From: Cymodocea nodosa
Taxonomy: Eukaryota; Streptophyta; Magnoliopsida; Alismatales; Cymodoceaceae
Assembly (NCBI GenBank): GCA_036874045.1
Contig: CM072343.1
Location: forward strand, 2,996,001 to 3,060,000
Direction of reading: 5' to 3'
Length of the DNA: 64,000 nucleotides
In this document: in pieces, positions 36,870-61,326 of the stretch
Layout: each line of letters opens with the position of its first letter
Position numbering within the stretch: the stretch's first letter is position 1
Notes under the pieces: model-generated
What the model was told of the DNA's origin: nothing
Seen by the model: the letters and a program-made list of their open reading frames with translations, nothing else
Database searches by the model: none
Position numbers and translations under genes: made by a program

Positions 36870-36952
36870 GCACTTATTACACGGGGACTTAGGTTATTTG
36901 TAAACTTTGTCAAGAAAATCTTTCCCGCTTATTGTTGTTACAACCTACGACG

Positions 36953-39219: not shown

Positions 39220-39706
39220 CTGTTTTTGTTTGTTTCTGAATACAAAATATAATGTTTGTATTACTTGTTTGATTTGATTGAACAATACATTTTTCTGTAA
39301 ATATCTTCAATTATTATTCTTGTTTACGGAAAGAGTTGTTGTAATTATATCTCTTATATGTATATATATATTCTCTGTAATTATCTTTTTGATTAATGAC
39401 AAAAAGAGGGAGAAATATTATAAAAAGATGATTATGATCTTAATTGCATATATATATTATAAAAGGAGATGCTATTTAAATGGTTATTGTAATCTGACAG
39501 ATGATAATTAGAAAACTGATACTTATATAATTATTGACATCTGAGAGTTTTAGTTCTGAGAGGTAAAATTTACACAAACAATAGAAATAAGCTTAAGTGA
39601 ACTTAAGTTAACAAACAAGTTTGTTGAATTAAAAGTTAACCCAACGAAGATGCTTTGTTGAGTTATACATATTTCATAATTGATTTAATATGGTTTTGTC
39701 ATCATC

Positions 39707-39720
39707 AAAAAGGGGGAGAT
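39707..39720 (+). promoter_or_regulatory. Copia-3 polypurine tract
   Basis: AAAAAGGGGGAGAT directly before the TG of the 3' LTR; it primes plus-strand synthesis in this family. Confidence 0.9.
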
Positions 39721-40173
39721 TGTTGAGTATTTTTGTTTTGATGATGTGTGCTGAATGAAAATAATCATATTTGCTCAATTACTATTGCTTGTGAAAAGAA
39801 ATTTGAAGTATCAGAAGAAAGCAAATTTGGTGAAACATGAAAAGACAAGATATTCGTCACTAAAGAATTGCTGAAGAAGAAAAAGAAGAGGAAGAAAGAT
39901 CTCAAACAGGGAGAAAAGTTTTAAATTCCGCAAATTAGTTTTCTTTGTTTGTAGTTATGAAATTGTTTAGATGATACATGGTATCGAAATATAATTGCAT
40001 CTACAATTTTTGAGGAGAATTGAATTGTATATTGTAATTTAAACCTTGAATAAAAATGATTTTATGAAAATAATGTCTCGACTTGTTTTTGAGTTTTAAA
40101 GTTTCAATTATATCTCAGAAAATATTAAAAATACACAATTCACCCCCCTCTTGTGTAGCCATACGATCCTACA
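39721..40173 (+). repeat. Copia-3 3' LTR, short form
   Basis: 453 bp against 1,565 bp for the 5' LTR. Both its start (TGTTGAG) and its end (CCTACA) are present, so it is a reduced LTR and not a chance fragment. Confidence 0.9.
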
Positions 40174-40190
40174 CATAACTACTTCACACC

Positions 40191-40246
40191 CTCATGGAGT
40201 TAGGTCATAACTCAACAAACTAAGTTCGTTGAGTTAAGTAATAACT
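40191..40246 (-). promoter_or_regulatory. Motif cluster upstream of F-box, locus A
   Basis: GGAGTTAGG, TAACTCAACA and TTCGTTGAGTTAAG within 56 bp, counterpart of 55133-55190. Separated from the F-box pseudogene by the Copia-3 insertion. Confidence 0.55.
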
Positions 40247-40289
40247 TTACGATATTACTAACTATAATTAAACTTACATTTTTTTCTTT

Positions 40290-41690
40290 TTATATTTTTC
40301 TACTTACTATAGTATACATAGTTACTTCTGTTATACTATTTCATTCAGCTACCCTCCCAAAGGAGGTATCAATTTCATTAACAGTTTTGTTGACAAGGTT
40401 AGGTATTGCTTGTGTTGGCAATCCTCCAGTAGGTCTAACTTCCATTGATTCCTTCTATCTAGGTGGTACATTTCTATTCATATTTTGATTTTGCATTGCA
40501 GCATTTCCAAATACAAGATCTAGACGATTATTTAATTGTTGGATTATCTTTTCTAATTTCTCTATTCTAGATTCTTGTTCAATTAATGCTTCATAACTTA
40601 TATTCTTGTCATTTATATTTTCTCCTCCCTGAAAATTGTTGTTTCTCTAAGATAAATTCAGGTGATTTCTCCAATTAGGGTTATAAGAACTTCCAAAGTT
40701 ATCTTTTTGGTTTCTAGCATAAATAATATCTAAATCATTAACATTTGCATTCTTTTCTGCTAGTTTTTGATTTAATGATAACTCTTCTATTTTCTTTGTT
40801 AATTCAATTAATTTAACTTCAAGCATAGTGCTTGAATCTATTTCATGCATTCTCCTTGGCAATATTCTTTTATTTGTAATAGCTTCAGCTGAGTTTTCCC
40901 ACTATGCAATTCTTTTTGCAAAGTTTTCTAAATATGCCCATGCTTCTTCACTACAGAGTTTTAAAAATCCATTCTGACAAGTAGATTCTAATAAAGATTT
41001 CGTTGAAACATCTATGCCTTCATAAATTATACCTATTAATTGTGCTTTACTCATTGCATGATGTGGACATTGAGTCAGTAAATCTTTAAATCTTTCAAAA
41101 TATTTCCAAAATGATTCTTCTTGTTTTTGGCTACACATTAATATTTCCTTTTTCTTTTTAATTGTTTGATGTGTTGGATAATATTTTTCCAGAAAAACAA
41201 AGTAAAATTCAGTCCATGTAGAAATTGAATCAGGCGATAGAGTATATAACTATCTCTTAACTGTGTCTTTTAAAGCAAAAGGGATATATCTAAGTTTAAT
41301 AGCATCTATACTCATGTTCGGCATTTTCATCATTTGACAAACTTCGTTAAATTCTCTAAGGAAATAATAGGCCTCTTCTCTTTCTAATCCATGAAAATGT
41401 GGTAATTGACTAATATAATTAGATTTCAGTTCAAACCTATCCCCCTCAAAATTTGGTAATCGAATGCATGAAGGTTCATCAACTAATTCAGGATACAGAA
41501 TTTCCCCTAATGGTTTTTCTACTAGAGCTGTCATATCTTCGTTCTCTTTTAAAAAAAGGTTAGCTACACCCCTAAGGATTTCATTAAAGTCCAATTTAGA
41601 AAATTTTTCAGTACGTCTCTATGTTGAATAATCCTATGTAGGAGTTCTTACTAATTGTTTAGTGCTAGGAGAACGAATCCATGTGCTCAT
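40290..41690 (-). pseudogene. Athila-type gag, locus A, broken
   Basis: Minus strand, starting MSTWIRSPSTKQL. Recognisable: SCIRLPNFEGDRFELKSNYI, SQLPHFHGLEREEAYYFLRE and FNEVCQMMKMPNMSIDAIKL, the Ty3/gypsy retrotransposon gag domain in its Athila form (PNFELKSGLI..LPKFHGL..EDPHKHL..F in better known relatives). FWKYFERFKDLLTQCPHH and a coiled-coil-like LTKKIEELSLNQKLAEKNAN follow. No pol follows it; instead the F-box unit does. Fossil with several interruptions. Confidence 0.88.
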
Positions 41691-41865
41691 AAACTCTTAA
41701 TATAAAGTAAAATAGTAGAAGTTTAATTACATACCAGTCTGAAGCTTTATACTCTGTAAATAGTTGTTGACGGATGAAGTTGAATCAGCTGCTTCTCCTC
41801 CTAGTTCCCCAACAAATTTCTTTTTCTTTTAGAGGTGCTGGTAACTCATAAATAACATTTTGTTC

Positions 41866-42206
41866 TATATTTATAATGCACGTCCATAAAGCAAATGAAT
41901 CTCATTGCAAGAACGTGTAGTGTGGTTCCTATTTTTATGGATACGTGTGCCACTTCTAATTTCAAATTTCAATAACTGCTAAACCTACGAAGTTTCGTTC
42001 ATGGCTAAAAGAATAACCATTTAGCTTAATCCACAAACTAACATCGTTGAGTTATAGATAACTCAATGGACTAGTTTCGATTACTGTTGCTAACTCCACG
42101 GACTAACTTCGTTGAGTTATAGATAACTCAACGGAGTGACCCTATATTATATTATTGACCTCATGGAGTTACGGTTAACTCAATGAACTTACTTCGTTGA
42201 GTTAAC
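41866..42206 (-). promoter_or_regulatory. Motif cluster and TATA-like box before gag, locus A
   Basis: 42036-42206 holds several CGTTGAGTTA / TAACTCAACG motifs, many as inverted pairs with a short ATAGA spacer. On the minus strand a TATA-like TGCATTATAAATATAG lies at 41880-41866, and the gag ATG about 180 bp further. No primer-binding site is clear between them, so this does not look like an ordinary LTR. The same layout occurs in locus B. Confidence 0.5.
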
Positions 42207-42649
42207 ACTAGGCAGTTTTCTAAAACTTACTCCTCGTATTAACTTCTATGTTTTTTTTTCTCCTACATTTTTCCAACTTAAATAAAATAAATACATGTCA
42301 TTACTGTAGTGTTCTAATTAAAACTCATTTAAATCTAAACATTATATAAATATTTAACTTATAGTTCATTTCATGTTATGTAGAATTTATATTTTACTTT
42401 GCAGCATGTAGATATTTTCAAGCATTAATCAATTATCTTTCATTTAATCCTGTCATTCAGCAGATTGCATAATGTTCCACAAATTATATAATATTCAAGA
42501 TAATTCATCCATTACATCATTCTTAAACATGAATGCAAAAACATCTGAAAAACATACATTCATTTATATGAATAGTATAAATTACAATCAATTAGATATT
42601 TTTCATACAAATATATACAAATACAAGTAGACGAACAATACAATTTAAT
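42207..42649. other. 3' region between extra ORF and next motif cluster
   Basis: AT-rich, non-coding. It matches 57145-57590 in locus B. I see no polypurine tract followed by an LTR start here, although an LTR would be expected in a standard element. Confidence 0.5.
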
Positions 42650-44873
42650 ATTTTCTCCTAAGTTCATCTACTTCCTTCTAGAGTTCCTCTACTTGTTTCT
42701 CTAATTGGTTAATCCTTTCTACAACTCCTGTATCTCCTTTAGAAGGTTCAGCAATCTCTGTAGTAGCATAATTTCTGTATTCTTTCACTGAAATGGTTCT
42801 TGATCTTATCCTTTTGGATGTCCATTTCATGAAATTGATACAGTCCACCATCAACAGTGGAATTAGATCTCCATAAAATAATTTCTTCTTTATTGCTCTC
42901 AGTTTGGAGATAAAAACTGTAGACCAATTTATCTAAATTCTATTCACAACTGCATATGTGGCTCACTTGACAAATTGACTCAGTTTTATATTGTGGCTTT
43001 GTCGTTGGTAGACATTCTTAATTAGAATGTTAGCTATCATGTGTGCTTTACCATTTAAATGCTTCAATCTATTTAACAACGGCACACCAAGATTGATAGC
43101 TAAACAATCCTTTATGATCTGTTCTGTCCACTTGACTACAGTTGTGCTTTCTAGAATTTTAAGTCCTTCATTCTTCAATCCTAAAATGCTGTGGAGAAGC
43201 TCTAGTGTTATCTGTACATCAGCTTGCTCCACGTTGAAAATTAATCCATTTTCTCCTTCTCTTAGATTCGCATAGAAGCAGGGTACTAGATTCTCATATA
43301 CTGCATGCCCTCTCTCTTGAGAAAAAAACTATAGTAGACCTTGGAATTCAAATAAATCTTGGATTTCTTGCATTCCGTCCCAATTTACTGGTCTACTATA
43401 AATGATATCATAACTCCAAATCTCTTAATATTTATTATAAACTTCTTGACTCCAAAAGTGTACTTCATTTAAAACTGTTGCTTTAGACGGATCAGGAATG
43501 TGAATTTGTTGCTCTAGAGGGGTTTGTTCTTGAACTTCCTCTTCTATGTGCTGAACTTGAATAGACTGAAAATGCTCTAGGGATTTTTGAATATTTGCTT
43601 CTGCTTCTATCTATGGTGGTGAGCTGGCAGAACTCTCCACTCTATCTTGAATTCTTTCCAAAATTTGCTAAAGAGTTCTTCGCTCTTTAGTGGAATCTGT
43701 CGAGTCATTTCTTTTCATATGTACTTGTTCAGCTTCTTGTTCATTTTCGTCTTTTTCTTCCTCCTCCTGACTACCAATCTACATTGTCATTGTTCTTTCT
43801 GATTCTATGGCAGATTGGGATAGAGTTACAAGCAAATCAACTTCTGCCCTAATTTCTAATTCTTCTGCTTGTACAAGCTGCAAATTAATTTCAGCCTGAT
43901 TTTCTTCTTCTCTTTGCTCTTACTGTTGCTACCCCTACTCATCCATAGAATCAGATAGCAGGTTTACAAAAATTGGCTCTATAGGCCCTACTAACATTAG
44001 TATTTCAGATTTAATCTCCTCTTGATATTCAAGCACTATCTCTTTTCCTTTCCTTCTTCTGATTAATTGTGTCTGGTCTTCCTCTTCTTCCTCTGAGATT
44101 AAATCTACAAAAATAGGCTCTGTAGGCCTTTGAGTCATAGGTAGTAGCTCTTCCTGTTTAACTTTTTCTATAATTGCTGGTCTCGAAGGACCAGCTTCAG
44201 CTCCTCTTATAGTAGGTCTAGTAGTGGCTTCTTGATGCTGTTCAACTTTAATTTTATATTGGGCTTTCAACTTTTCTACAGCCCTCCTTTTGCACCATGC
44301 ATCAAACACCAGATGTACTATAGCTATTACCAATTCTTCTAGTTCTCCTTGGTCTTTTCCTATTTGAACCAGTTCTTGAAATTCTCTTCTTTCTTCCTCA
44401 ATAGAAGGCCCTAAAATTGCTGCTCTTTCTAACGGTCTTGGTTGTGGAACTGAATGTCTAGGCTGCTGTTCCTCAGGGACAGGTCTTTCAGCAGTTGGCT
44501 CCTCTTATTCTTCAGTTTCCCTTCTTTGTTGCTGCCACCTAATTTCACCCCTTGCACAACCAGCAATGCACCTTTTGAACCATAATCTAGCCTTGCGTTG
44601 GATTAGCTCTAGGGCAACTTCGTTATTTGGCCTGATTTTTCTCTCTTTGCTTACAGCAACTTCTGTTGCTACTCTGATTTTTGTCTTCATAATTTGAGGT
44701 ATTTGTATTCCTAAATCAATTAACACTTTCCTCCAATAGAAAAGGTCAGATACTACCTTTTTTAGTTCCTTTTCCCTCGTCGTATTCTTGATTTTCTACC
44801 TTATATGCCATTCCTTCGAATCTTTAAGAAATTCTGAAGTGTCAACTACATCTTCCCAAAACTTGAGTGTCAT
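42650..44873 (-). pseudogene. Athila-type extra ORF, locus A, broken
   Basis: Minus strand, starting MTLKFWEDVVDTSEFLKDSK, then RKARLWFKRCIAGCARGEIR and a helical REFQELVQIGKDQGELEELV. An acidic middle (PTEPIFVDLISEEEEED) and a globular region containing VEQADVQITLELLHSILGLK, HMIANILIKNVYQRQSHNI and NRIQINWS follow, with a coiled-coil end near 42740-42660. The globular part aligns with the extra ORF of Copia-1/3 (FIANILHANLFQRVGHNMEV, NRIQINWFDV). Role unknown. Several interruptions. Confidence 0.8.
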
Positions 44874-44977
44874 CTTCCACATCGTGGAGTTACAGTATGG
44901 AACAGAGTCGCTCTAATATCTACTGGTCTAAGTTCTAAATGATTGTGCGGATAATCCCCCCAAACCCTAAGTTTAAG

Positions 44978-45196
44978 TATAAATAAGCCCTAAGTTTAGG
45001 CGGGTAATTGGGTCATTTCCCACGTAAATTCTTGCTCTCTCATTCGTGGAATTACAGTTAACTCCACAGACTAAGTCTGTGGACTTAACTACAGTACTTC
45101 GTTGAATTATTTGTAACTCAACAGGGTAAATCTGTTAACTTATCCTAGACTCAACGGAGTAAGTTCGTTGAGTTAAGCATAACTCAACGAACTTCC
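44978..45196 (-). promoter_or_regulatory. Motif cluster and TATA-like box before extra ORF, locus A
   Basis: 45051-45196 carries GGAGTTAC, TAACTCAACG, CTCAACGGAG and CGTTGAGTTAAG motifs in both orientations. Minus-strand TATTTATA at 44985-44978 follows, and the ORF start is about 105 bp later. The arrangement parallels the internal promoter candidates of Copia-1/3. In locus B the TATA-like box is present (59904-59897), but the motif cluster is cut off by Copia-4. Confidence 0.5.
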
Positions 45197-45229
45197 TATA
45201 AAGTTATATCTAATAAAAATACATATAAT

Positions 45230-45597
45230 AATAATTTATACTTTGATAAAGATTGAAGAATTTCCAGTCTAGCCGACTCTTAATTTTTCAACACTTTAAA
45301 ATTTTTTCGATCAAACCGTTACATTCCTCGGTTGAACCGAAATTAAATTTTTTTCTCCTATCAATTGAACCGATACTATGCTTTGGTAAAACTGATGTTT
45401 TTACTACATATAATATATAAATTTTTTTTTTGTTTCGATCAAACCGATGGATCCTATTAGTTGAACCACAACGATTTTTTTCTTTTAAAATATGCTTCGA
45501 TAAAATCGATAATTCCTTTTGGTTGAACTGTGACTATATTTAAATAATATTTTGTTATATATATATATAAATATATATTTTATTTATTTATTTATTT
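45230..45597. repeat. Degenerate repeat CGATCAAACCG / GGTTGAACCG
   Basis: Between about 45307 and 45540 the pair TTCGATCAAACCG...GTTGAACCG-like recurs four times in diverged form (starts near 45307, 45355, 45431 and 45488). The rest is poly-T and TATA-rich. It lies between the end of pol and the next motif cluster. No coding sense. Confidence 0.6.
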
Positions 45598-48460
45598 TTT
45601 AAGCAAAGCTTGAGTAGTCCTCTACTCTTACTTCTTCTATAATTCCAAAAGCATTTTTTGGTATTTTCAAAATAGGTCTAAGTCTTTGTCTATTTACTTT
45701 AAATATATTCTGATTTTTAGGATTTTCAATTTCAATAGCATAGGGGTAAATATTTCGAACTATGTAAGGTCCTGCCATCTAGATCTTAATTTTCCTAGAT
45801 GGTTATGGAGTCTAGTCATGTAAAGATATACTTCTTATCCTATTTCAAAGGATTTTGGAATAATTTTCTTGTCATGCCGAAATTTCATTTTCCCTTTTTC
45901 TCTTATAGTTTTTGAATAAGCTTCATTCTTAAATTCTTCTAATTCAATCAATTGAATTTTCCTATTTTCAGTAGCTTGATTTAAATTAGTGTTCAGAGTT
46001 TTTAATGCCCAATAAGCTTTATGTTCAATTTCAACTGGTAAATGACAACTTTTTCCATATACTAGCCTAAAAGGTGACATACCTAAGCTTGTCTTATAAA
46101 TAGTTCTATAAGCCCAAAGTGCATCTATCAATCTATTAACCCAATCTGTTCTAGTAGGATTTACTACTTTTTCTAAGATTAACTTAATTTGTTTGTTTGC
46201 ACTTTCTACTTGTTCAGTTGTTTGCAGATGATATGATGTTGCAATTTTGTGGTTTACTCCATATTTCTTCATTAAGGCTTCAAAACTTCTATAACAGAAA
46301 TGAGTTCCTCTATCATTGATAATAGCTTTAGGTATTCCAAATCTGGCAATTATATTGGTTCTTACAAAATGTATTACCACTTTGTTGTCATTAGTTTTTG
46401 TAGGAATAGCTTTTATCCATTTATACACATAATCCACTCCCAACAATATATAACTAAATTGATTAGACATAGGAAATGGACCCATAAAATCTATTCCCTA
46501 CACACCAAAGATTTCAACCTCAACAATAGGATTAAAAGGCAACATATTCCTCTTTGATATTCTTCCTATTTGTTGACATCTTAAACAACTTAAGCAGTAT
46601 TTATGAGCATCTTTGAATAGTGTTGGCTAATAAAATCCACATTGCAGAATTTTAGTAGTAGTTTTCCCTGAACCAAAATGCCCTCCACATGCTTAGTCAT
46701 GGTAGAAAGACAATATGCTCTAATATTCAGTTTCTAGAACACACCTCCTTAAAACCAGATCAGGACATTTCTTAAATAAGTATGGGTCTTCCCAATAGTA
46801 ATATTTTACTCTTGAAAAGAACAATTTCTTATCCTGTCTATTCCAATCTTTAGGTGTTAAACCAATAACTAAGTAATTAACTATGTCTACATACTAAGGC
46901 ATTGTGTTGATGGTCATTAGTTGTTCATCAGGAAAATTATCCTTAATTTCAATATTTGATTTTTCTATTTGTAATCTTGATAAATGATCTGCTACTACAT
47001 TCTCACAACCTTTTTTATCTTTAATCTCTAGATCAAATTCTTGTAATAATAATATCCACTGGATCAATCTAGGTTTGGTCTCTTTCTTTGCTATTAGGTA
47101 TTTTAAAGCTGAATGATCTGTGTATACTATCACTTTAGCTCCAATCAGATATGATCTAAACTTTTTTAAGGCAAACACTATAGCTAACAGCTCTTTTTTA
47201 GTAGTTGTGTAATTAACTTGAGCATCATTTAAGGTTTTGCTTGCATAATGAATCACTCTAGGAGATTTTTCTATCTTCTATCCCAACACTGCTCCTACAA
47301 CAAAATCAAATGCATCGCACATTAATTCAAATGGATGGCTCCAATTAGGTGATTGTATTATAGGAGTTGAAATTAAGCTAGTTTTAAGCTTGAAAAATAC
47401 TTTTTTGCAATTTTTATCAAAGTTAAATGGGACATCTTTTAATAGATTAGTTAAAGGTCCAGCTATTTTGCTAAAATCTTTAATAAATCTTCTATAAAAA
47501 TCCAACATGTCCTAGAAATGATCTAATATCCTTTACTAATTTAGGTTCTAGTAGATTAGAAATTACTTTTATTTTAGCTTTATCTACTTCCAACCCATTC
47601 TTTGAAACAACATGCCCCAAGACTATTCCTTATTTAACCATGAAGTGACATTTTTCCCAATTTAGAACTAGAATTTTTTCCACACAGCGTTTTAATACTC
47701 GGTCTAAATTATTTAAACACACTTCATATGAAGTTCCATAAATAGTAAAATCATCCATAAATATTTCTAAAAAATCTTCAATCATTCCAGTAAATATGCC
47801 CTACATACACCTTTGAAAGGTGGCTGGTGCATTGCATAATCCGAATGGCATTCTCTTAAAAGCATAAGTTCCATTAGGACAGGTGAAAGTTGTTTTCTCT
47901 TGATCCTTTAATGCTATTGGAACTTGGTTATATCCTGAATACCCGTCTAGGAAACAAAAATATTCTTGCCCTGCTAATTTCTCTAGCATTTGATCTATCA
48001 AAGGTAAGGGAAAATGATCTTTCCTAGTCACTGCATTCAGCTTTCTATAGTCTATACACACTCTCCAGCCTAATTGAATTCTAGTAGGTATCAAGTCTTG
48101 GCTTTCATTCATAATAACTGTTAATCCTGATTTCTTGGGAACTACATGGATTGGACTAACCCATGAGCTATCAGAAATCGGATAAATTATGTCATTATCT
48201 AACTATTTCACTATTTCCTTCTTGACTACTTCTTTAAGGTTTGGATTTAATTTCCTCTTAGGAATTCTAACAGGTTTAGCATTCTCTTCTACATATATGT
48301 GGTGACAGCATAAAGTTGCACTTAACCCTTTTATATCATTCATAGTCCATCCTATTGCTTCTTTATAAGTTTTTACTACATCTCTTAATTTAGCAATTTG
48401 ATCCTCTTTTAAATCTGAAGCAATAATGATTGGACATTGTTTGGTTGCTTTAGGCGACAC
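45598..48460 (-). pseudogene. Athila-type pol (RT, RNase H, integrase), broken
   Basis: Minus strand. Pre-RT segment with YKEAIGWTMNDIKGLSATLC and KRKLNPNLKEVVKKEIVK; reverse transcriptase RVCIDYRKLNAVTRKDHFPL, PLIDQMLEKLAGQEYFCFLD and YAFKRMPFGLCNAPATFQRC; RNase [21 protein letters not shown] and [11 protein letters not shown]; integrase [20 protein letters not shown] and [20 protein letters not shown], with the C-terminal SRWQGPYIVRNIYPYAIEIE. Typical of Athila in Ty3/gypsy. The gag and protease are missing between the primer site and this region. Several interruptions. Confidence 0.93.
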
Positions 48461-48475
48461 TAGAGAACTTGTTTA

Positions 48476-48560
48476 GTTCCCCGGCAACGGTGCTAGAAAA
48501 CTTGTTTGGTTGCTTTAGGCGGCACTAGAGAACTTGTTTAGTTCCCAGGTAACATTGCCA
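48476..48560 (-). promoter_or_regulatory. Athila primer-binding site, present twice
   Basis: Minus-strand TAGCACCGTTGCCGGGGAAC at 48495-48476 and TGGCAATGTTACCTGGGAAC at 48560-48541. Both resemble TGGCGCCGTTGCCGGGGA, the tRNA-Asp-type site of Athila/Tat elements. They lie in a ~65-bp direct duplication that includes GAACTTGTTTAGTTCC. The copy nearer the LTR is more decayed. Confidence 0.85.
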
Positions 48561-48567
48561 GAAAACT

Positions 48568-50542
48568 TGTGTTTGTTAACTTCTGTTTTTAACTTGGTTA
48601 ATTTATCTTTGTGCTTATATCAATAATTTCTTTTTAGAAGTAAACGAACAACCTTTCACACAAATTAGATATTAATTCCAATTTGTATTTTAACTGCAAG
48701 TGCACAACATATATTGTATTTGTGTGCAAGTACAAGTTGATCTCATAGAGATTAAGAATTGTGTACTATTCCGTTTTTTTATATTATACTTAATGTGTTC
48801 AGTAATCACTCTGTTGAGTTACAATTAACATAACGGACTTAGTTCGTGGAGTTATGGCTAATTCAATGGACTAATCTCGTGGACTTAAGTTAACTCCACG
48901 AGCCTATCTTTCCAGTTTAATACTACTATTTACAAAGGAATTCGACCAACCATTGGGCGGTTCCATAGATTGTAAATAACATTAATTAAACTCTTTAATG
49001 TTAGTGAATATTAGATTTATCATTAGGCAATACTAACATCCAGATATTTCAAATAGTAACCATTAAAATCTTTAAGTATTTGGAACGAATCAATTTCAGT
49101 AAACTATAAAACTATTATCTATTTTCTAAATCAAACAAACATAAAACATTCACAATACTGACAATGGTAACTTTAATCACGATATAAAACAAACAATACA
49201 ACACTTAAATAGGAAATATAAACACAGATAAGTTGTTGTTTTTGGTATTTTTGTTTTGAGATGTTCATGAAAATGGGTGAAAGGTGAAATGTAAAAAAAA
49301 TAAATCTCTATCGATAGTAAATACTTCTGTCACTATATGTTACGCGATTACACCACTAAAAACTTAATCACTTACAATTCTGCCTCCTCTCCCTATAGAA
49401 TCGCGAGTCCAGAATTGCAAGATGATCTCCTCTTCAACATACTAGCATCAACTTGAAACCAAGGCTAGAAGCTTTACGATCTCTTAAGATATGAGTCGGT
49501 GCTTGGTGAAAATGGTTTCCCTTCCCGCAACGTGATCACTCCTCACAATGGTTGTCAGGCACCATGTTTGGCTCGGAATCGACCTGACATCAGGAAAGTA
49601 TCCTCACAAACCTCCGATGGTTGGTGATTATGGTGGTGGTGTGGAGCTTTAGAGAACTTCCGACATTGCCTGCAGTTAGCGTGGTTCTCCACCTCTGCAC
49701 ACACACACTTCTTCGTCTTTTCTCCTTTTCTTTTATATTTCTTTAGTAGTAACTGCTTCTACTTAGATGATCGGTTGGATTTCCTTCATTCATATCAACG
49801 ATGGTGATTTCTTCTCCCTTCCATGAGTGAATTCCTACGTGATACTTGCAATCGTGGTTTTCCTTCGAATGTCCTATTACTATAACCGCTATAGTGGCAT
49901 ATTAGAAAATAAATGGTTCGTAAAGTTACAGATAACTCAATGGGCTTACTTCGTTGATTTAACTATAAAACACATGCAATAAAGAAATAAGCTGCTAACA
50001 TAACGTGTTACCTTTGTGTGCATTCATGTAACCCAACCCATACAGTTATGCTAACTTAACGAGTTAAACATGTACATCTCACTTGATATACTAAAGCATT
50101 TAAATTCAACACGTGCATAATTCTAACTTAAGTTCAAATATTTTGAATACTTACAAACCTAACTATCTGATGCCTAGATGCATTTCAGATAGTTAACAGA
50201 TAACTTACCGAAAATCCACTTAAGTCATGTATTATGGTTTCAACACGTGTACTTCATGATATAATAAAATATTCTTTAAAACATAACTGTCAGGTACATT
50301 AAACATAACTCTCTGAAATAATAAAAAATTCGGATACTTAAGAATTTCACAGCCTGTAATTTACCGGTAGTTCAAAAATGTACTAAATTAACATTAATTC
50401 CCTGAAATTATGTAGATTCTTTCATTAAAACATATAACAGTGCAATTATAACATAATGACTTAATTCTCATATGATAAGCTAAATATTATGCAATTAACC
50501 ATCATTTAACCATTAATATTATGCACTTTTTCGTTCTAAACA
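48568..50542 (-). repeat. Athila-type LTR
   Basis: Plus-strand limits TG (48568) and CA (50542), about 1,975 bp. On the minus strand it is preceded by GTATGGGGGAAG (polypurine tract) and followed by the primer-binding site, so it joins the 3' end of one copy to the 5' side of the next. Motif clusters are at 48808-48905, 49915-49965 and 50035-50065, plus TTTCAGATAGTTAAC near 50190. Its plus-strand left part, with TGCAAGTGCAC, resembles known Athila LTR ends. No second LTR of this copy was found here. Confidence 0.75.
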
Positions 50543-52188
50543 CTTCCCCCATACTTAAATTTTGCTAGTCCCTTAGCAAACTAAGATCTAATTAGTTGGT
50601 CTTTCTAAAGTGCTAGAATTAATTCTTCCTTTTGTTCTTCTTCAGAATAAGAATTTAGATTATTATATAGATATTCTATATGTTTCAGTAATCTGTTTTA
50701 ACTTTGTTTTCTCCTCTTTAACCTGCAAATATACTTAGAATATATGTAAATTACATACAAAATATATCAGCATCACATAGGTGTTAATTATATTATCATT
50801 TGTTCTTTTTTTCAACATCTGTCATCCTGAATTTTCTAATAAGATTTCCAAAATAAATTCCAACAACATATGAATCAAAGCACAATCCAATTCAATATGA
50901 TTAAGACAAGTAGAATAAAGAATTGTATCTCAGATAAACAACTTCAAAAGTCTATTCTAAATTCATACTTCAGCAATTTTAGATAACATAAAATATACTT
51001 GATTCAAAAGATATCTGTATTTCACAAAACACTTGTATCTTTTCAGAACAATATATGCATATTTGTACTTTAAAAGTTAATTTGACAAGCTTAAATCATA
51101 CAAGAGCTTTCTAGTGTACAAGAGCTTTCTAGTCAACAATCCCAAATCTGATCAGGATCTTAGGTTGTGAGATTTAAAGAGTCTTTTTTTCAGGTCAACA
51201 ATCCTTACATACCTATCTGCTCAAGTACAAAAGTCTCATGATCAAACAAGTCAATAAACTCTCAAAGTTTTTCTCTCTTTTTTTTCTTTTTTTTTTCTTT
51301 TCAACACAGTATATGTACGTATTTCATTAATACAGATACAATAAAACACCAATCTCATATAGTCTTGCTTCTATTATTTACTGAAAATATGAATCGATAT
51401 CAATAAGCTCATACTTTTTCTGTAGTTTAATAAGATTTACACATAAATCATTCTACAAGTTTAATCAATCAAATTAAATGTATCCTTGATCATATGCATT
51501 TCATTTAATCCAAAAATCAACATTTCAGCTCTTTCAGGATTTCAGATAATTTACTGAGTTTCAGTTAAGCATTCTGATTTCATTTTAAAATTGTGAAATT
51601 GTTAAACTCATAAAATTCGGCAAAAACATAAGATACTATATGTAGATTTGTATGAATAATAAAATTCTGTAGCATCTTATATAGGATTAAAAATATAACA
51701 TTCACGCAGTTACAGTTAAAAATTTTACAGTCTCAATTATCAGATAGCTACAACAAATTCATAAAAATTTTCAATTTTCACAAAATTTTGCAATACCATT
51801 CTAATTCCTTTAATTAACAAACTTACATAGCTGTTACTTTAATTACCTCCTCCCCCATACCTACATTTTGCATTATCCTCGATGTGAAAGATTTTACAAT
51901 AAATTTAGTAATTGTAGCAGGCTTGAATATTGTTTCGTTGACTTAGCATCTAACTCAACGAACTTAATTCGTTGAGTTAATGAATGACTCCACGAATTGA
52001 GTTTAAATCTAAATTTAGGATAAGTAATCAATTACATACCTTGTTCTTTTGTATCTCCTTCAGTATATTTCGATTTTTAATTCTGAAAAACTTTTCATTC
52101 TCAAATAAAAGCAGAATATATAACAAAATAACATTTAACAAAACAGATATTGTTAAATGTAAAGTATCAATTTGTGCATTTTATATAT
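50543..52188 (-). mobile_element. 3' non-coding end of an Athila-type element
   Basis: Minus strand, read from right to left: a motif cluster at 51930-51995 (CGTTGACTTAG, TAACTCAACGAAC, TTCGTTGAGTTAA), a purine-rich GTATGGGGGAGGAGG at 51862-51848, the ~750-bp block shared with Copia-1/3 (51530-50780), and the polypurine tract GTATGGGGGAAG at 50554-50543 before the LTR. No coding sense was found. The right border is uncertain. Confidence 0.6.
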
Positions 52189-53758
52189 GTTAATTCATGC
52201 ATATTAAGGATTATAAGTCATCATTATATATGTTCTTATGAAAGATTACATGAAAATCATATTTTAGAACTATGCATATTTTATTGGTTAAATAGTCAAT
52301 AATGCACAAATTTATCCTTTATCAATTAAACACCTAGTCAATAGCCCTTGTATTAGACATAATTCTTATAATTCTTCAATGTATGACTTTATATACATTG
52401 TATGATTGCCAAATCTCTTAAATATGATGTTAAACTAAAGAACTTTAAGTAATTCATGTATGTACATGTGAAAAAGTTGTAGACCAAAACATTCCTAATT
52501 TGGCAACTTTCCATATATGGCAACTCATGCATGCATGTATACTATATTTGCATCATATGATTTATATTCAATGTATATGTGCATCAACTTGGTTTTGAGT
52601 TTTATATGTCAATAAATCATGAAATCAAGGTGGATCAAAGAGGAAAAAAACGTGGGCCATTGGATGCAACTTATTGGAGCCCAAGCAACAAAAGCCTAGA
52701 GTATTTAAAGTGTTTGACCACTCAATTGTAGGCTATCTCCTCCTCTTCCAACACATTGCAGCCAGCGGTTCCAGCCATTCCAACATCTTCATCTAGAAAG
52801 TCTCATCTTCCCCTTGATCTTGAACAAGCTCCCTTTAAGAATGGTGAGCTTTGGCATCTTCCACTCCTCCTAGAAGACACATTCTCTTCAATTCAGACGG
52901 CCATACGTTAGGATCTCCTTGGGCATTCATCTTGGTGGATTGGGAGGCTCGTGTGACTGATTTGGAGTGGAGCAAAAGGTTAGGATCTTCAGGGTTGAGT
53001 CATCGGAAGCATCATTCTTAGATGTGGAAGCCAAAGTTGTGGGTCTTGGAGGCAAGATCTTGAGGGCGTGCACCATTCTTCTTTAAGGCAACCTTAGAAG
53101 CTTCACTTGGACGTGCTACAAGTGGTGACAGCCCTGTGGAGCATTGATTTCAAGGACTTTGGGAGTCATTGCTTGAAGAAACGTGGAAAATTAAAAGGTA
53201 TGATGGAAAGGAGAGATCCTCATACTAGTTTTTATGTTTTACAATTTTATATGTATGAGTATAGTTTGAGTATGTGGAAGGACGAAATTCTATGCATAAA
53301 TCTTTGTTTCCAATGTTCTATATTAAAGATCACATATTGTTTTGATGTTAATTGATATCAAGATTGTGTTCATATTATATATTTAGTGTGAATGAATGTG
53401 ATGATGTGAATTGTGAAGGCAGTTTTCCGTTCTTAGATGGCCAGATTGTTAGTAATTTTTCTTTGAATTGTATCTACTTGTTCGTCATCTATAAATTCCG
53501 TTTTTTGTTTCGTTTTGTAAGTATAATGATGTAGAACAGGTTTACAAAGTTTTAGAATTTTTTAGAATGTTTTCTGAAGATTTTCGATTTTATTTTGTAA
53601 AGGTATCAGCAGTTTTGAGTCTCTATCGAATGCTAGTTTTAAGCTTGACGCCTGTGCTGTGATTGCATTGTGTATTTTGTGGAATTCAATTCTATAAATT
53701 TTCCTTGTTAGTGTAACGGATCTACTTTCAAGGCGCGCTTATTTCGTAGCATTTTACA
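52189..53758 (+). repeat. Possible solo LTR of an unidentified family
   Basis: The stretch starts TGTTAATTC and ends TTTTACA. A TATA-like GAGTATTTAAAG lies near 52699, followed by a C-rich leader (CTCCTCCTCTTCCAACACAT), the layout of a plant LTR. No target duplication (ATATA left, AGTAA right), primer site or partner supports the limits. The open frames at 53107 and 53352 have no recognisable match and are not called as genes. Confidence 0.3.
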
Positions 53759-53929
53759 AGTAAGCCAGTTGGTTTCCCAAAACAGATACCAACAAACTGG
53801 ATTGATATTTTGTCTTTCTTTTCTTTTAAAATAAAACTAAAACTAAAATTTTTCTTCCTTCTTTTTTTAAAAAAAAAATAATAATAATAATAAATGTAGA
53901 ATACAACATTAAAAGCACAGAATCACCAT
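53759..53929. other. Spacer with (AAT)n run
   Basis: Poly-T/poly-A and an AATAATAAT run near 53878-53894. Nothing else recognised. Confidence 0.4.
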
Positions 53930-55065
53930 TTAAGAACATGATTGAAAAGTAGTAACAAATGAAATAAACGTGTCAGTCCAAGCAAACTTTTTAGGCATAA
54001 TTCTTCTTGCTATTAATTTTGTTTTAATGCAATTCGTTTTCCTTCTTAATTTGTAAACTTGCAGTATGTTATCAATACTAAATATAAGTGTATTACCATG
54101 AAATGAAATGCAGAAAGGGATCCTTTTCTGTTCCAAGATAATGTAGCTATTACCATTTCTACATCTATTTCAATATATTCCTCTTCCCACTTCCATTCAT
54201 TTATGTTTTTCATAATCCATATTTAAAATTTCATCAATTCATCCCACCATCTTATCAGACATAAAGTAGGATCATCATATTCAATATACCACATTCCTAA
54301 TTGAATTTTATCATATTCTGCAGATGGTGGTTTAGCTATATCACTCGATATCGGTAAAATTTCTATAAAGTCATTATCATAACTATCTATGCTTACTATG
54401 TATAAATCAAATCTAAATGCAACTAATATATCTGTGACTAGATATATATATCCATCAAGTATGACATGTATGCTATTAATTAATGACTTCTGTCCTAGAT
54501 ATATCGTAGTATTTTCAGTCCAAGATCTATTAAGAAAATTATATACACTTAAGCATAAATCTTCATCCCAACTTCCAGTTGGTCTCCAATAATACAATTT
54601 TTTAGGAATGGTCAAATTTTTATCAGAAATTATTAAAGCTAACCCACAATTTTCAATTGGTACTTCATATCTATTAGGCCTTCCTATATTCCATTCTTCT
54701 CTTGTGATAGGATTTCTAATCAAAATGTTGGGTAACAGAATTTCATACCTTGGTTTGGTTCTGTATATAATTAATCCTTCATCGATCCCCATAATATAAT
54801 CTATTCCTTTTAATGTATTGGGTGGAATTCTAGCAGTTTCTTCCATATTCAGATATTCATAGCTAATTGAACTACGATTAAATGACTTCCATAAAAATCC
54901 ATCTCTAATCTTAGTCATTTTTGCAACTTGTAGTCCATGAAAATATTTTTCTCTGATATAGTCTTTAATATCCTTTGATATACAACACAATCTACACAGA
55001 TCTTTAGTTGACAAGTTACTTAGTACTTCCCTTAGTGCGTCCAATGGTAATTTCATAAATTCCAT
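53930..55065 (-). pseudogene. F-box gene copy B
   Basis: Minus strand, starting MEFMKLPLDALREVLSNLST. The F-box motif spans residues 4-42 (LPLDALREVLSNLSTKDLCR, LCCISKDIKDYI). The C-terminal domain includes RPNRYEVPIENCGLALIISD, YYWRPTGSWDEDLCLSVYNF and QLGMWYIEYDDPTLCLIRWW. The first 280 codons are open to 54223. An in-frame stop and then a 4-base difference from copy A near 54090 break the rest. The homology continues to a stop near 53930, giving about 375 residues in the ancestral protein. F-box proteins recruit targets to SCF ubiquitin ligases; the target is unknown. Intronless. A motif cluster lies 70-125 bp upstream. Confidence 0.88.
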
Positions 55066-55132
55066 CTATTGTGATTCTGTATAACATAAACAAAAATTTA
55101 ATAGAGACAAAATTAACATAGCTACTTCACAT

Positions 55133-55190
55133 CCTCGTGGAGTTAGGTCATAACTCAACGGATTAAGTTCGTTGAGTTAAGTAATAACTC
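55133..55190 (-). promoter_or_regulatory. Motif cluster upstream of F-box, locus B
   Basis: GTGGAGTTAGG, TAACTCAACGGA and TTCGTTGAGTTAAG lie 70-125 bp before the F-box ATG and just after the end of gag. The same motif type stands before gag and before the extra ORF. No clear TATA box was found between it and the ATG. Confidence 0.5.
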
Positions 55191-55279
55191 TATGATACTA
55201 TTAACTATAAGTAAACTTACATTTTTTTTTTTTCTTTTTATACCTACTATATTATACATAGTTACTTCAGTTATATTGC

Positions 55280-56622
55280 TTCATTCAGCTACCCTCCTAG
55301 AGGAGGTATCAATTTCATTAACAGTTCTATTGACAGGGTTAGGTATTGCTTGTATTAGCAATCCTCCGGTAGGTCTAACTTCCATTGATTCTTTCTGTCT
55401 AAATGGTATATTTCTATTTTGATTTTGAATTGCAGCATTTCCAAATACAAGATCTAGACGATTGTTTAATTGTTGAATTATCTTTTTTAATTTCTCTATT
55501 CTAGATCCTTGTTCAATTAATGCTTCATAACTTATATTCTTGTCATTTATATTTTCGCCTCCCTAGAAATTGTTGTTTCTCCAAGATAAATTCGGGTGAT
55601 TTCTCCAATTAGGGTTATAAGAATTTTCAAAGTTATCTTTCTAGTTTTTAGTATAAATAATATTTAGATCATTAATGTTTGCATTCTTTTCTACTAGTTT
55701 TTGATTTAATGATAACTCTTTTATTTTATTTGTTAATTCAGTTAATTTAACTTCAAGTATAGTGCTTGAATCTATTTCATGCATTCCCCTTGGCAATATT
55801 CTTTTATCTGTAATAGCTTCAGCCAAGTTTTCCCACTGTGTAGTTCTTTTTGCAAAGTTTTCTAAATATGCCTATGCTTCTTCACTACACAGTTTTAAAA
55901 ATCCATTCTGACAAGTAGATTCTAATAAAAATTTTGTTGAAACATCTATGCCTTCATAAATTATACCTATTAATTGTGCTTTACACATTGCATGATGTGA
56001 GCATTGTGTTAATAAATCTTTAAATCTCTCAAAATATTTTCAGAATGATTCTCCTTGTTTTTGGCTACACATTAATATTTCTTTTTTCTTTTTAATCGTT
56101 TGATGTGTTGGATAATATTTTTCTAGAAAAATAAAGTAAAATTTAGTCTATGCAGAAATTGAATCAGGCGACAGAGTATATAACCATCTCTTAGCTGTCT
56201 TTTAAAGCAAAAGGGATATATCTAAGTTTAATAACATCTATACTCATGTTCAGCATTTTCATCATTTAACAAACTTCGTTAAATTCTCTAAAGAAATAAT
56301 AGACATCCTCTCTTTCTAATCTATGAAAATGTGACAATTGACTAATATAATTAGATTTCAGTTCAAACCTATCTCCCTCAAAGTTTGGCAATCGAATACA
56401 TGAAGGTTCATCAACTAATTTAGGATACAGAATTTCCCCTAATGGTTTTTCTACTGGAGCAGCCATATCTTTGTTCTCTTTTAAAGAAAGGTTAGCTACA
56501 CCCCTAAGGATTTCATTAAAGTCCAATTCAGAAAATATTTCAGTACACCTCTATGTTGAATAATCCTAGGTAGGTGTTCTTACTAATCGTTTAGTGCTAG
56601 GAGAATGAATCTATGTGCTCAT
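55280..56622 (-). pseudogene. Athila-type gag, locus B, broken
   Basis: Counterpart of 40290-41690, about 10% different. It keeps SCIRLPNFEGDRFELKSNYI and the C-terminal RPTGGLLIQAIPNPVNRTVN, with an end VAE. The helical NKIKELSLNQKLVEKNANIN is also present. Several interruptions. It is followed by the F-box unit on the same strand. Confidence 0.87.
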
Positions 56623-56794
56623 AAACTCTTAACATAGTAAAATAGCAGAAGATTAAATGCATACCAGTCTGAAGCTTTATATTCAGTAAATAGTTGTTGA
56701 TGGATAAAGTTGAATTAGCTGCTTCTCCTTCCAGTTCCCCAACAAATTTTCTTTTCTTTCAAAAGTGTTGGTAACTAGTAAATAACATTCTATT

Positions 56795-57142
56795 CTATAT
56801 TTATAATGCATGTCCATAAAGCAAATGAATCTCGTTGCAAGAACGTGTCTTGTAACGTGTAGTGTGGTTTCTATTTCTATGGGTACGTGTGCCACTTCTA
56901 ATTTCAAATTTTAGTAACCGCTAAACCCATGAAGTTTCGTTCATGGCTAAAAGGAATAACTATTTAGCTTAATCCACGAATTAACCTTGTTGAGTTATAG
57001 TTAACTCAACGGACTAGCTTCGGTTACTGTTGCTAACTCCACAGACTAACTTCATTGAGTTACAGATAACTCAACGGAGTGACCTTATATTATATTATTG
57101 ACCTCGTGGAGTTAAGGTTAACTTAACGAACTTACTTCGTTG
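56795..57142 (-). promoter_or_regulatory. Motif cluster and TATA-like box before gag, locus B
   Basis: Cluster 56970-57142 with TAACTCAACGGA, TTCATTGAGTTA, TAACTCAACGGAG and TTCGTTGAGTTAAC. Minus-strand TGCATTATAAATATAG at 56810-56795. Same layout and spacing as in locus A. Confidence 0.5.
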
Positions 57143-57590
57143 AGTTAACACTTAGCAAATTTCTAAAACTTACTCCTCGTATTAAGTTATATATTTTTTC
57201 TCTCCTGCATTTTGTTAACTTAAATAAAGTTAAATACATGTCATTAAACTCATTTGAATCTAAACATTATATAAATATTTAACTTATAGCTCATTTCATA
57301 TTATGCAGAATTTATATTTTACTCTACAACATGCAGATATTTTCAGCATTAATGAGTTATTTTGCATTTAATCCTATCATTCATAAAATTTGTATATATT
57401 TTAAACAATCTTGCATCTTGTTCAAACAATTATATACTATTCAATATAGTTCATCCATTTCATCATTCTCAAACATGAATGAAATTACATCTGAAAAACA
57501 TACATTCATTTATATGAATAATTTACATTACAATCAATTAGATATTTTTTATACAAATATATACAAGTAGACGAACAATACAATTTAATC
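57143..57590. other. 3' region of extra ORF, locus B
   Basis: AT-rich, homologous to 42207-42649. No gene. The 79-codon frame from 57331 is not conserved in the A copy. Confidence 0.5.
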
Positions 57591-59793
57591 TCTTCTCCTA
57601 ACTTCATCTACTTCCTTCTGGAGTCTTTCTACTTGTTGCTCTAATCCTTTCTACAGCTCTTGTAATTCCTTTAGAAGGTTCAGCAATGTCTACAACAACA
57701 TAATTTCTGTAATCTTTCACTGAAATGGTTCTTGATCTTATCCTTTTGGATGCTCATTTAGTGAAATCGATACAGTCCACTCTCAGCAGTGGAATCAGAT
57801 CTCCATAAAATAATTTCTTCTTCATTGTTCTCAGCTTGGAGATAAAAACTACAGACCAATTTATCTGAATTCTATTCACAACTGCATATGTGGCCCATTT
57901 GACAAATTGACTCAATTCTATATCGTGGCCTTGTCGTTGGTAGACATTCTTAATCAAAATGTTAGCTATCATGTGTTCTTTACCATTTAATTGCTTTAGT
58001 TTATTTAATAATGGCACACCAAGATTGATAGCTAAACAATCCTTTGTGGTCTGTTCTGTCCACTCGATTGCAGTTGTGTCTTCCAGAATTTCTAGTCCTT
58101 CATTTTTTAATCCTAGAATGTTGTGGAGAAGCTCTGGTGTTATCTGTACATCAGCTTCCTCCACGTTGAAAATTAATCCTCCATCTTCTTCTCTTAAGTT
58201 TGCATAAAAGCAATGCACTAGATTTTCATATACTACATGCCCTCTTTCTTTAGAAATAAACTACAGTAGACCTTGGAACTCAAATAAATCCTTAATTTCT
58301 TGCATCTTGTCCCAATTTACTTGTCTACTGTATATGATATCATAACCCTTGATCTCTTGGTATTTATTATGAGCTTCCTGACTCCAAAAGTGTACTTCAT
58401 TTAGAATTGTTGTTTCAGTTGGGTCAGGAATGTGAATTTGTTGCTTTCGAGGGGTTTGTTCTTGAACTTCCTCTTCCATATGCTGAACGTGAACTTGCTG
58501 AATATTTGCTTCTGCTTCTGTCTGTGGTGGTGAGCCAACAGAACTCTCCACTCTGTCTTGAATTCTTTCCAAAAATTAGTAAAGAGTTTCTTGCTCTTCA
58601 ATGGAATCTGTAGTCATTTCTTTCCATATGTACTTGTTCAGCTTCTTGTTCAGTTTCTGTTCTTTCTTCTTCCTCTTGACTACCAATCTGCATAGTCACT
58701 GTTCTTTCTAATTCTATGGCAGATTGGGATGGAGTTACAAGCAAATCAACTTCTGCCCTAATTTCTGTTTCTTCATTTTGTATAAGCTGCAAACTAGTTT
58801 CAACCTATTTTTCTTCTTCTCTTTGCTCTTGCTGTTGCTCCTGCTCCTCCTCAGAATCAGATAATAGGTTTACAAAAATCGGTTCTATAGGCCCTACTGA
58901 TATTGGTATTTCAAATTTAATCTCCTCTTGATATTCAAGCACTATTATCTCTTTTCCTTTCCTTCTTCTGATTAATTATGTCTGATTTTCCTCTTCTTCT
59001 TCTAAGATTAAATCTACAAAAATAGGCTCTACAGGCCTTTGAGCCACAGGTACTGGCTCTTCCTGTTTAACTTTTTCTATAATTTCTGGTCTCGAATGAC
59101 CAACTTCTGCTCCTCCTGCAATAGGTCTGGTAGTAGCTTCTTGATGTTGTTCCACTTTGATTTTATATTGGGCTTTCAACTTTTCTGTAGCCCTCTTTTT
59201 GCACCATGCATCAAACACTAAATGTGCTATAGCTACTACCAATTCTTCTAGTTCTTCGTGGCCTTTTCCTATTTGAACCAGTTCTTGGAATTCTCTTCTT
59301 TCTTCCTCAGTAGAAGGTCCCAAAATTGCTGCTCGTTCCAACGGCCTTGTGGTGGAATTGAAGGTCCTGGTTGCTGTTCCTTAGGAACAGGTCTTTCAGT
59401 AGTCGGCTCCTCCTATTCTTCCTCTGCTTGTTCTTCATTTTCTTTCCTTTCTTGCTCCTAGATTGTCCACTGAGCCTGTCTACCTATGCGTCTTTTGAAC
59501 CAAAGGCGGGACTTATGTTGGATTAGTTCTAGGGCAACTTCGTTATTTGGTCTGATTTTTCTCTCTTTGCTTACAGCAATTTTCGTAGCAACTTTTATTC
59601 TTATTTCCATAATCTAAGGTATTTGTTTACCCAAATCTACTAAAACTCTTCTCCAATTGAAAAGTTCAGATTCTACCTTTTGTAGCTCTTTTTCCCTCGT
59701 CGTATTCTTGATTTTCTACCTCGTGTGCCATTCCTTAGAATCTTTAAGAAATTCTGACGTGTCAACTACTCCCTACCAGAATTCTCGTGTCAT
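57591..59793 (-). pseudogene. Athila-type extra ORF, locus B, broken
   Basis: Counterpart of 42650-44873. The globular region is well kept at 58218-57754: MHCFYANLREEDGGLIFNVE, ADVQITPELLHNILGLKNEG, EHMIANILIKNVYQRQGHDI and WATYAVVNRIQINWSVVFIS. The FYANL start and the INW stretch are hallmarks, as I recall, of the putative plant transposon protein family (PF20167). The middle is acidic, with PVEPIFVDLILEEEEE. Upstream are TATTTATA (59904-59897) and, at 59962, the Copia-4 insertion. Confidence 0.82.
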
Positions 59794-59956
59794 CTTTGTC
59801 ATCGTGGAGTTACACAACGGAATGAAATTGCTTTGATCTCTACTGTTCTAAGTTCTAAATGATTCTGTAGATAATGCCCCCAAACCCTAAGTTTAGTATA
59901 AATAAGCCCTAAGTTTAGGCAGATAATCGAGTCATTTTCCACACAAAACTCTCGCT

Positions 59957-59961
59957 CTCTC
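59957..59961. repeat. Expected target-site sequence CTCTC left of Copia-4
   Basis: CTCTC precedes the first Copia-4 LTR. In locus A the homologous position reads GCTCTCTCATTCGTGG without an insertion (about 45040-45056). The partner copy would be outside the window. Confidence 0.6.
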
Positions 59962-61325
59962 TGAAAGGACCTCTAGATTTTGATAATACAGAAATCAATG
60001 TGAGGATTTAAATTGTATTTCTCAGGCTTAACAGTCAGCAAGAGAGTAGAAGTTGATATAGACATTTCAAAGTATGCTGCAAGTGATAAAAAGGAATTTC
60101 AGAAGGTTACCAGGCTTAACATCCGAAAGAGAAATATTTTCGGTGAGTTAACAATCTAAGTATCCAAAATGCAGTATAAAATAGTAGCAATACTATCGGA
60201 CAATTAGAAGATTAAGTATCCGACAATTAGAAGACTTTCGGAAAGTTAGGAAGATGGATGTATGAAGAATCGAAAAGTTACTAGAGCTAACTATCCAAAA
60301 TCTTGAAGAGTTTCAGTGAGTTACAGGTAAAACCATCCGAAACTTAAGTCATTGAATTTCCCACGTGTAGAAATCCAAAAAGAAGCTTAAAAGAAGAATC
60401 AAAAAGTTACTAGAGCTAACTATCCAAAATATTGAAGAGTTTCGGTGAGTTACAGGTATAACCATCTGAAACTTAAGTTAGTCTATTATGCACATGCTGA
60501 ATTAGATAAAGTAGTTAGAAACTTAACGAAGGATTTCGGAGGGTTACTGTAGCTAACTATCCGATAGTTAAATAACAATTCGATAAGTTACAACTGCAAG
60601 TATCCAATTGAATGACAACTCTCATTGTATGATCTGAAATCCTACATGGTAGAAAGACTTAAGTGATTTTTTGGTGAGTTACAAACATCCTTCGGAGAGT
60701 TTCACAGCTAACTATCTGAAAGTTTGAGAAAATCGGAAGGATATCTTGAATTATCTTCCTAAACGGTAACTTACCATATTTGGGACTGAAATCTTACCAA
60801 GTACAGTAGAATACATCCATTGGAAGAAAAATATGATCGTTACACATGTTTAGTATATATACAAGCTACAAACAACAGAATTAGCTTAGCTTTTGCTTAT
60901 ATACATATTTACACCAAGCTTAATAAAAGAAAGCCTTAGAGATCAAATCACCTTCAGCATTTACAGATTCAATTTTAGAAGCTCATCACGCACTCAACTT
61001 TGATACTTTCAAGCAAGTGTTTTATTGAAGTATACGGATCAAAAACTTTAGAGAAAGATTGGTTGGAGCTACGACTAGAAAGCTCAAGTGAATGGTTGGT
61101 TCTTGCTTTAACCTTAAAGCAAGTGGTTGTAAGTTTGTGAAAGTTTAGTGAAGCCCAAGTATCCCCTAGGGGTGGACTAGTCGTTAGTAGTGAACCACCT
61201 AAAATCTCTGTGTGTATTCTTGTTATCGTGTGCTTGTTATTTTTCTATATGAATCTATCATTAAATAGCTAAGAAACAAATTATTACCATTCACCTCCCC
61301 TTTGGTAAGTCATAAGGTCCTAACA
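59962..61325 (+). repeat. Copia-4 LTR, first copy
   Basis: TGAAAGGAC to CCTAACA, 1,364 bp. It has motifs CTAACTATCC(G)AAA and GGTGAGTTACAGG in clusters, and an internal ~129-bp duplication (60264-60392 and 60393 on). A TATA-like TTTAGTATATATACAAG lies near 60849. One base separates it from the next LTR. Confidence 0.92.
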
Positions 61326-61326
61326 T

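Follow-up and report, generated by a model that had tools for sequence, protein, structure and literature searches.

There is a family of mobile long terminal repeat (LTR) retrotransposons of about 17 kb that is repeated across the genome of Cymodocea nodosa, and parts of two of its members lie in the stretch of DNA analysed here. This stretch, the window, is 64,000 nt long (assembly GCA_036874045.1, contig CM072343.1, positions 2,996,001-3,060,000 of the forward strand; G000:C15:2996001-3060000 in our numbering) and belongs to a genome whose 28 contigs add up to 374,616,459 bases. Both the structure of the element and its mobility are seen directly in its copies. The gag gene is split: its capsid half is separated from the zinc knuckle and located behind pol, and the only knuckle found opens the pol unit. 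The element also carries an F-box gene, which was under purifying selection while the element spread. We suggest that these copies probably represent an Athila-like Ty3/gypsy family with a rearranged genome, in which a split gag and a selected F-box gene are combined with separately promoted units.

Structure and mobility of the element

The complete copy (C19:7988564-8005525) is 16,962 bp long and is located within a copia element. The target duplication ATCAT is present on both sides, and the two LTRs are 92.5% identical over 1,907 columns. The ends of the LTR are fixed by a solo LTR on contig C17, which is flanked by CAAGG on both sides. In these two places we find the hallmarks of an LTR retrotransposon, i.e., paired TG...CA LTRs, a 5-bp target duplication, a primer site and a polypurine tract. 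The primer site is presumably of the tRNA-Asp type, with 2 mismatches to the complement of this tRNA. When the pieces of the C19 copy are read apart, the order is LTR, primer site, zinc knuckle, protease, reverse transcriptase (RT), RNase H, integrase and an extra open reading frame (ORF), and then the capsid half of gag, the F-box gene, a tail, the polypurine tract and the second LTR. Sites of a recurrent motif, CGTTGAGTTA, are found in the LTRs, before the extra ORF, before gag, before the F-box gene and in the tail. A copy on C3 is colinear with the C19 copy across 7,971 bp at 89% identity. Two further places, being nested or tandem, served only to establish the order: copy 2 (L031, L032, L037; such names denote loci fetched from the same genome) and a C1 locus (L033, L034, L036). 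A C5 copy was considered as a clean insertion and dropped, its interior being scrambled.

The pol unit has the Ty3/gypsy arrangement of protease, RT, RNase H and integrase, with PF13650, PF00078, PF17919 and PF00665 in that order in L058. As in Athila, an extra ORF lies between integrase and the 3' LTR; in locus B of the window it resembles PF20167 (E=1.8e-5, 25.2 bits, cut-off 45). Those protease relatives that have a species name, among the 120 listed of 1,180 hits, are from flowering plants.

The same order recurs at many places. In each search of the genome, the best 40 of 4,700 to 6,600 first-look candidates were scored with the query place counted in, and thus the counts are lower bounds and are silent on lower-ranking copies. 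The gag-F-box junction is covered over at least 1,602 of 1,623 bp at 89-100% identity in 40/40 scored places. The region from the LTR end through the primer site and leader to the knuckle is contiguous, by DNA match, in all 40 as well. For the junction of integrase and extra ORF, 33 places cover at least 1,610 of 1,701 bp (30 of those in full) and the other 7 are partial, while the extra ORF-gag junction is full length in 29 and partial in 11. An initial annotation of the window had described the gene order, the motifs, the TATA-like boxes and the two copies, all of which are present, and had proposed a rearranged Athila derivative. The genome search that it called for found the same order at many places and a complete copy with a target-site duplication. 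The mobile unit, with its F-box gene, is upheld by these findings, and the split of gag had been missed. Two observations had been named that would have spoken against it. One was an LTR between the extra ORF and gag, and there is none in loci A and B of the window, in the C19 copy at 7.99 Mb, in the C3 copy or in the 29/40 full-length places. The other was an F-box gene unlinked to gag; the two are linked in 40/40 scored places, found with a query that spanned both and that unlinked copies could escape. A worn primer-site-like stretch near 41815 was considered as a remnant of an LTR between the extra ORF and gag. It was rejected because the true LTR ends are elsewhere, and further because 29/40 places match across the gap.

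The window holds two loci on the minus strand, A and B, which are 86.5% and 89% identical in two pieces of 5.9 kb in total. Locus B is uninterrupted over 54078-59961. A copia element at 28223-40173 interrupts locus A between its gag and its F-box gene, and the F-box gene of A is therefore found at 27180-28222. This copia element has the flanks CATAG and CATAA, and the uninterrupted B has CATAG at the same place. The right end of B, at 59961, is another copia insertion, and the pol-side sequence picks up behind it, at L035:4979. The normal LTR inside the block (48503-50542) lies between the F-box gene of B and the pol of A, not between extra ORF and gag, and contains three groups of motif sites. 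It is bounded by the polypurine tract on one side and by the primer site on the other, which makes A and B a tandem of two elements with one shared LTR; both were later broken by copia insertions. The initial annotation had placed the gag-F-box pairs of both loci in one block, which is correct for B; the F-box gene of A is outside it. The features are as follows.

1799-14883: copia element E1, gag-pol and extra ORF, target duplication GCATT
27180-28222, minus strand: F-box gene of A, with an internal stop (89% match to B, ORF pieces)
28223-40173, plus strand: copia element E2, a later insertion splitting A, outside the unit
40208-40236, minus strand: motif pair before the F-box gene of A
40341-41690, minus strand: capsid half of gag of A, without zinc knuckle, frame broken (PF03732 in relatives)
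42045-42204, minus strand: motif cluster before gag of A (TATAAATA at 41868-41875)
42645-44880, minus strand: extra ORF of A, PF20167-like, broken, outer limits approximate
44883-45189, minus strand: motif cluster before the extra ORF of A (TATA-like TATTTATA at about 44978-44985)
45835-48437, minus strand: pol of A with RT, RNase H and integrase, frames broken (PF00078, PF00665, PF17917)
48438-48477, minus strand: point in A where about 1.9 kb (zinc knuckle, protease) is missing; the C3 and C19 copies have the stretch between primer site and RT
48478-48495, minus strand: primer binding site, presumably tRNA-Asp type (same position in L039, L042-L049)
48503-50542, minus strand: LTR, TGTTTAG...CCAAACA, 3' LTR of B and 5' LTR of A (ends from the C17 solo LTR and the C19 LTR pair)
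50543-53755, minus strand: tail of B, with a motif cluster (51936-51979), a spacer shared with E1 (50689-51567) and the polypurine tract (about 50543-50553)
53926-55065, minus strand: F-box gene of B (PF00646), 280 aa open over 55065-54223, the 379-aa family frame running on to about 53926
55136-55179, minus strand: motif cluster before the F-box gene of B, with a splice-acceptor-like TTATACAG and then ATG (by eye)
55281-56622, minus strand: capsid half of gag of B, frame broken
56988-57147, minus strand: motif cluster before gag of B (TATAAATA at 56798-56805)
57585-59961, minus strand: extra ORF of B and part of its promoter region, cut at 59961 by the copia insertion

The tail of B contains a foreign insert of about 1.6 kb (52159-53755) that is absent from the copy 2, C1, C3 and C19 loci. 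At the 3' end of the LTR (window 48503-48580; L043, L045) there are repeats of about 65 bp, each with a primer-site-like stretch, and their number varies among copies.

The split gag and the F-box gene

In the standard layout of LTR elements (PMC7264820), gag is ahead of pol and one protein contains both capsid and nucleocapsid. The Athila arrangement, with capsid and knuckle as one protein ahead of protease and RT, is not found in this element. A partial protein of Cephalotus follicularis has the capsid (residues 5-68) before the protease (210-409) in a single ORF. Its matches in the C19 copy are at 7999733-7999933 for the capsid and at 7991509-7992402 for the protease. Thus, the two are in reversed order and 7-8 kb apart. 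The same reversed pattern is obtained with an Asparagus protein (residues 1-33 and 232-478). The capsid half is matched by PF03732 in L015 (E=9.4e-9) and L010. When its stop-to-stop pieces of 25 residues or more are considered, the C19 copy has a single CCHC pattern, and this is located in the pol unit; the zinc knuckle itself was not reported by Pfam in the one piece tried.

The F-box is recognized by PF00646 in B (E=2.2e-9, 37.3 bits) and in L019 (25.8 bits), where the cut-off is 20.5. For analysis of selection, the best 30 of the 40 scored copies were fetched and changes were counted by parsimony on a tree of these 30. The ratio of nonsynonymous to synonymous changes (N/S) is 1.10 on internal branches versus 2.40 on terminal branches (p=1.9e-6), and changes to stops make up 2/208 internal versus 56/851 terminal changes. 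Because internal N/S is low, terminal N/S is high and internal stops are few, we conclude that the F-box gene was useful during the spread of the family and decays after insertion. An open frame of 378-379 aa is present in 3/30 copies. The forward-shifted frames +1 and +2 have no difference between internal and terminal branches (p=1 and 0.52), and antisense frame +2 gives no signal (p=0.062). For gag, N/S is 1.02 internal versus 2.46 terminal (p=8.5e-7) in 26 of the 30 copies, the other 4 having no recognisable start; its antisense +1 frame gives p=0.033. No homologue of the F-box protein was found among 872 protein candidates or, by sequence search, in the PDB. As for a host parent gene, the search of the C. 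nodosa genome itself was filled by copies of the element.

Motif clusters, expression and rival explanations

The core of the motif is CGTTGAGTTA / TAACTCAACG. There are 24 copies of CGTTGAGTTA in the window versus 0.06 expected, and 0/100 shuffles reach 24. Genome-wide, 78,188 exact sites compare with 2,207 for the reversed pattern, a 35-fold difference. Clusters, called at up to 1 mismatch, occupy the LTRs and the gaps between genes in the window region, and at this threshold eight stretches that bear genes, about 25.9 kb in sum, hold no site. A chance or coding origin of the motif is ruled out by the shuffles, the reversed-pattern control and the zero sites in these stretches. At least one site within 1 mismatch precedes the F-box gene in 30/30 loci. 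The tail has a site in 29/30, the exception being the B copy of the window, with its insert. Before gag, TATAAATA is exact in 20/21 aligned copies; 9 of the 30 copies were omitted because they did not show the usual cluster at its normal distance. Some of the listed C1 places of CGTTGAGTTA recur at 33-bp spacing. A literature search with the CGTTGAGTTA 10-mer gave no paper on retrotransposons, judging by titles.

From the position of these clusters and TATA-like boxes, we suggest that the extra ORF and the capsid half likely have separate internal promoters. The LTR would drive the genomic RNA and the pol unit, and mRNAs of the extra ORF and of the capsid half would start at the internal motif-plus-TATA promoters. 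With its own mRNA, capsid could be produced in larger amounts than pol without the usual control of the gag-pol ratio. The F-box gene would be expressed from its own start or through splicing. By analogy with polerovirus P0 and ARGONAUTE1, its product may act through the host SCF ubiquitin ligase, although we are less sure of this step; having joined the ligase, it could mark a host restriction factor, perhaps part of the silencing machinery, for destruction. A widespread family without the standard layout would show that capsid can come from a unit of its own, and the split layout makes the setting of the gag to pol ratio a testable question. The selected F-box gene points to counter-defence via protein destruction.

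There are several points that weigh against this scheme. The promoters, RNA starts and splicing are read from sequence alone, and both the target of the F-box protein and its binding to SKP1 are put forward by analogy only. A structure model of the F-box protein is unusable (mean pLDDT 34.4). In the selection analysis, the F-box antisense +1 frame, which shares the wobble phase, gives the same signal (p=5e-6), and antisense +0 goes in the opposite direction (p=0.014). Stops in gag are not depleted internally (19/181 internal versus 72/892 terminal changes), so that either the frame or alignment used for gag has flaws or some of the spread took place non-autonomously. The Pfam matches of the capsid are partial, and the PF20167 scores (22.8-25.2 bits) are under the cut-off. 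The Athila label is our assumption from sequence patterns and not from an RT tree. Most copies of the element are broken. Since 40 of thousands of candidates were scored, a relative with normal order could escape notice. Finally, arrangements of LTR and gag without pol and extra ORF exist at two loci, as described below.

It is possible, though unlikely, that the element is the same and the downstream genes are expressed from spliced or read-through LTR RNAs, the motif clusters being enhancers, insulators or packaging signals. By eye, there is a donor-like GTAAGT after the primer site in L042, L044 and L046-L049, and an acceptor-like TTATACAG ahead of the F-box gene. In the F-box unit, unlike the other units, the TATA-like stretch is upstream of the motifs. 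Splicing of an env-like gene is known in barley Bagy2, according to PMC7264820. However, the same paper reports an accessory gene with its own promoter in maize Grande, the LTRs carry the same type of cluster, and the near-invariant TATAAATA is downstream of the gag cluster.

A rather doubtful extension is that capsid and nucleocapsid from separate units assemble in trans, that copia and gypsy elements share a CGTTGAGTTA code read by a factor from the extra ORF, and that the gypsy F-box protein disarms silencing, so that a cooperating modular community would result. An argument against such a factor comes from the copia element in B: there is no space in it for an extra ORF, and still each of its LTR copies has 2 sites (at most 1 mismatch) where 0.03 are expected.

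It is improbable that two cooperating elements, LTR-pol-extra ORF and LTR-gag-F-box, recombined into composites. Among 12 loci fetched at the LTR-primer region, 7 continue into the leader-knuckle region and 2 (L041, L043) directly into the gag unit, as this idea would have it; the rest are the locus of the window, a solo LTR and a rearranged locus (L051). We regard L041 and L043 as apparent deletion derivatives. The joint in L041 is within the putative gag promoter at the TATA box, as expected of a deletion. Of the best 40 places scored for each junction, 33 run without a break from integrase into the extra ORF and 29 from the extra ORF into gag.

Slightly less probable still is an F-box gene that is a passenger, i.e., a captured host gene without function. 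The full frame is missing in 27/30 copies, and gene capture by plant LTR elements is known from Bs1, as PMC13317346 describes; however, the internal N/S of the F-box gene is as low as that of gag, and internal stops are rare. That old normal elements were joined in tandem and copied as a segment, the alternative offered by the initial annotation, is scarcely credible: it was right about A and B as a tandem with one common LTR, and the C1 locus is likewise tandem, but segmental duplication as the origin of the gene order is ruled out by junctions dispersed on many contigs and by the same order in the single LTR-to-LTR C19 copy with its target duplication.

Known systems and the copia neighbours

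The element shares with Athila, by our label, the protease-RT-RNase H-integrase order, the tRNA-Asp-type primer site, an extra ORF behind integrase and gag and pol patterns. It differs in that the known Athila layout is gag, pol, extra ORF, whereas here the capsid half comes after the extra ORF, with an F-box gene in addition. In the literature searched, with subscription papers and preprints outside its scope, no LTR element with its own F-box gene or with gag behind pol was found. An orchid Ty3/gypsy element with an ORF for an m6A RNA demethylase, described in PMC9289625, likewise has a cellular-type protein added as its own ORF. However, the orchid protein is a 2-ODD enzyme and not an F-box protein, and gag and pol form one ORF in the usual order. 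Maize Bs1 is also a plant LTR element with host-type coding sequence, in this case fragments of three host genes according to PMC13317346, whereas the element here has a selected 379-aa F-box frame. The P0 protein of poleroviruses, as described in PMC6593998, is an F-box-like protein of a genetic parasite and acts on RNA silencing. It is an RNA virus protein, and the likeness is thus one of analogy only; in the same account, autophagy contributes to the loss of AGO1 and the role of SKP1 binding is called unclear.

The two copia elements E1 and E2 are about 90% identical over 11.6 kb and are also marked by CGTTGAGTTA. Both contain gag-pol, and in both the extra ORF lies behind an internal motif pair and a TATA-like box. 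The extra ORF of the gypsy element is homologous to theirs (37% over 126 aa; a weaker pair has 29% over 59 aa), and a spacer of about 0.9 kb is common to the gypsy tail and E1 at 76% identity. Motif, extra ORF and spacer common to two superfamilies suggest an exchange of control modules. E1 and E2 look Sirevirus-like. Sireviruses, which are Ty1/copia elements, have many copies of palindromic repeats in the LTR, ahead of TATA, and again on the 5' side of the env-like gene (PMC2829016), and therefore the motif arrays of E1 and E2 are of a known kind. Clusters of palindromic repeats in the LTR and at an env-like gene are found here as well. The Sirevirus core is CGG-CCG, whereas it is CGTTGAGTTA here, where the clusters also occur in a gypsy element at the extra ORF, gag, F-box gene and tail.

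At 59962-62645 of the window, a pair of direct repeats, each about 1.3 kb long and 86.8% identical to the other, lies head to tail before a copia gag; these are the tandem LTRs of the copia element inserted in B. A piece of plastid ycf1 at 15340-16053 (PF05758, E=3.1e-27) is likely a plastid-to-nucleus insertion.

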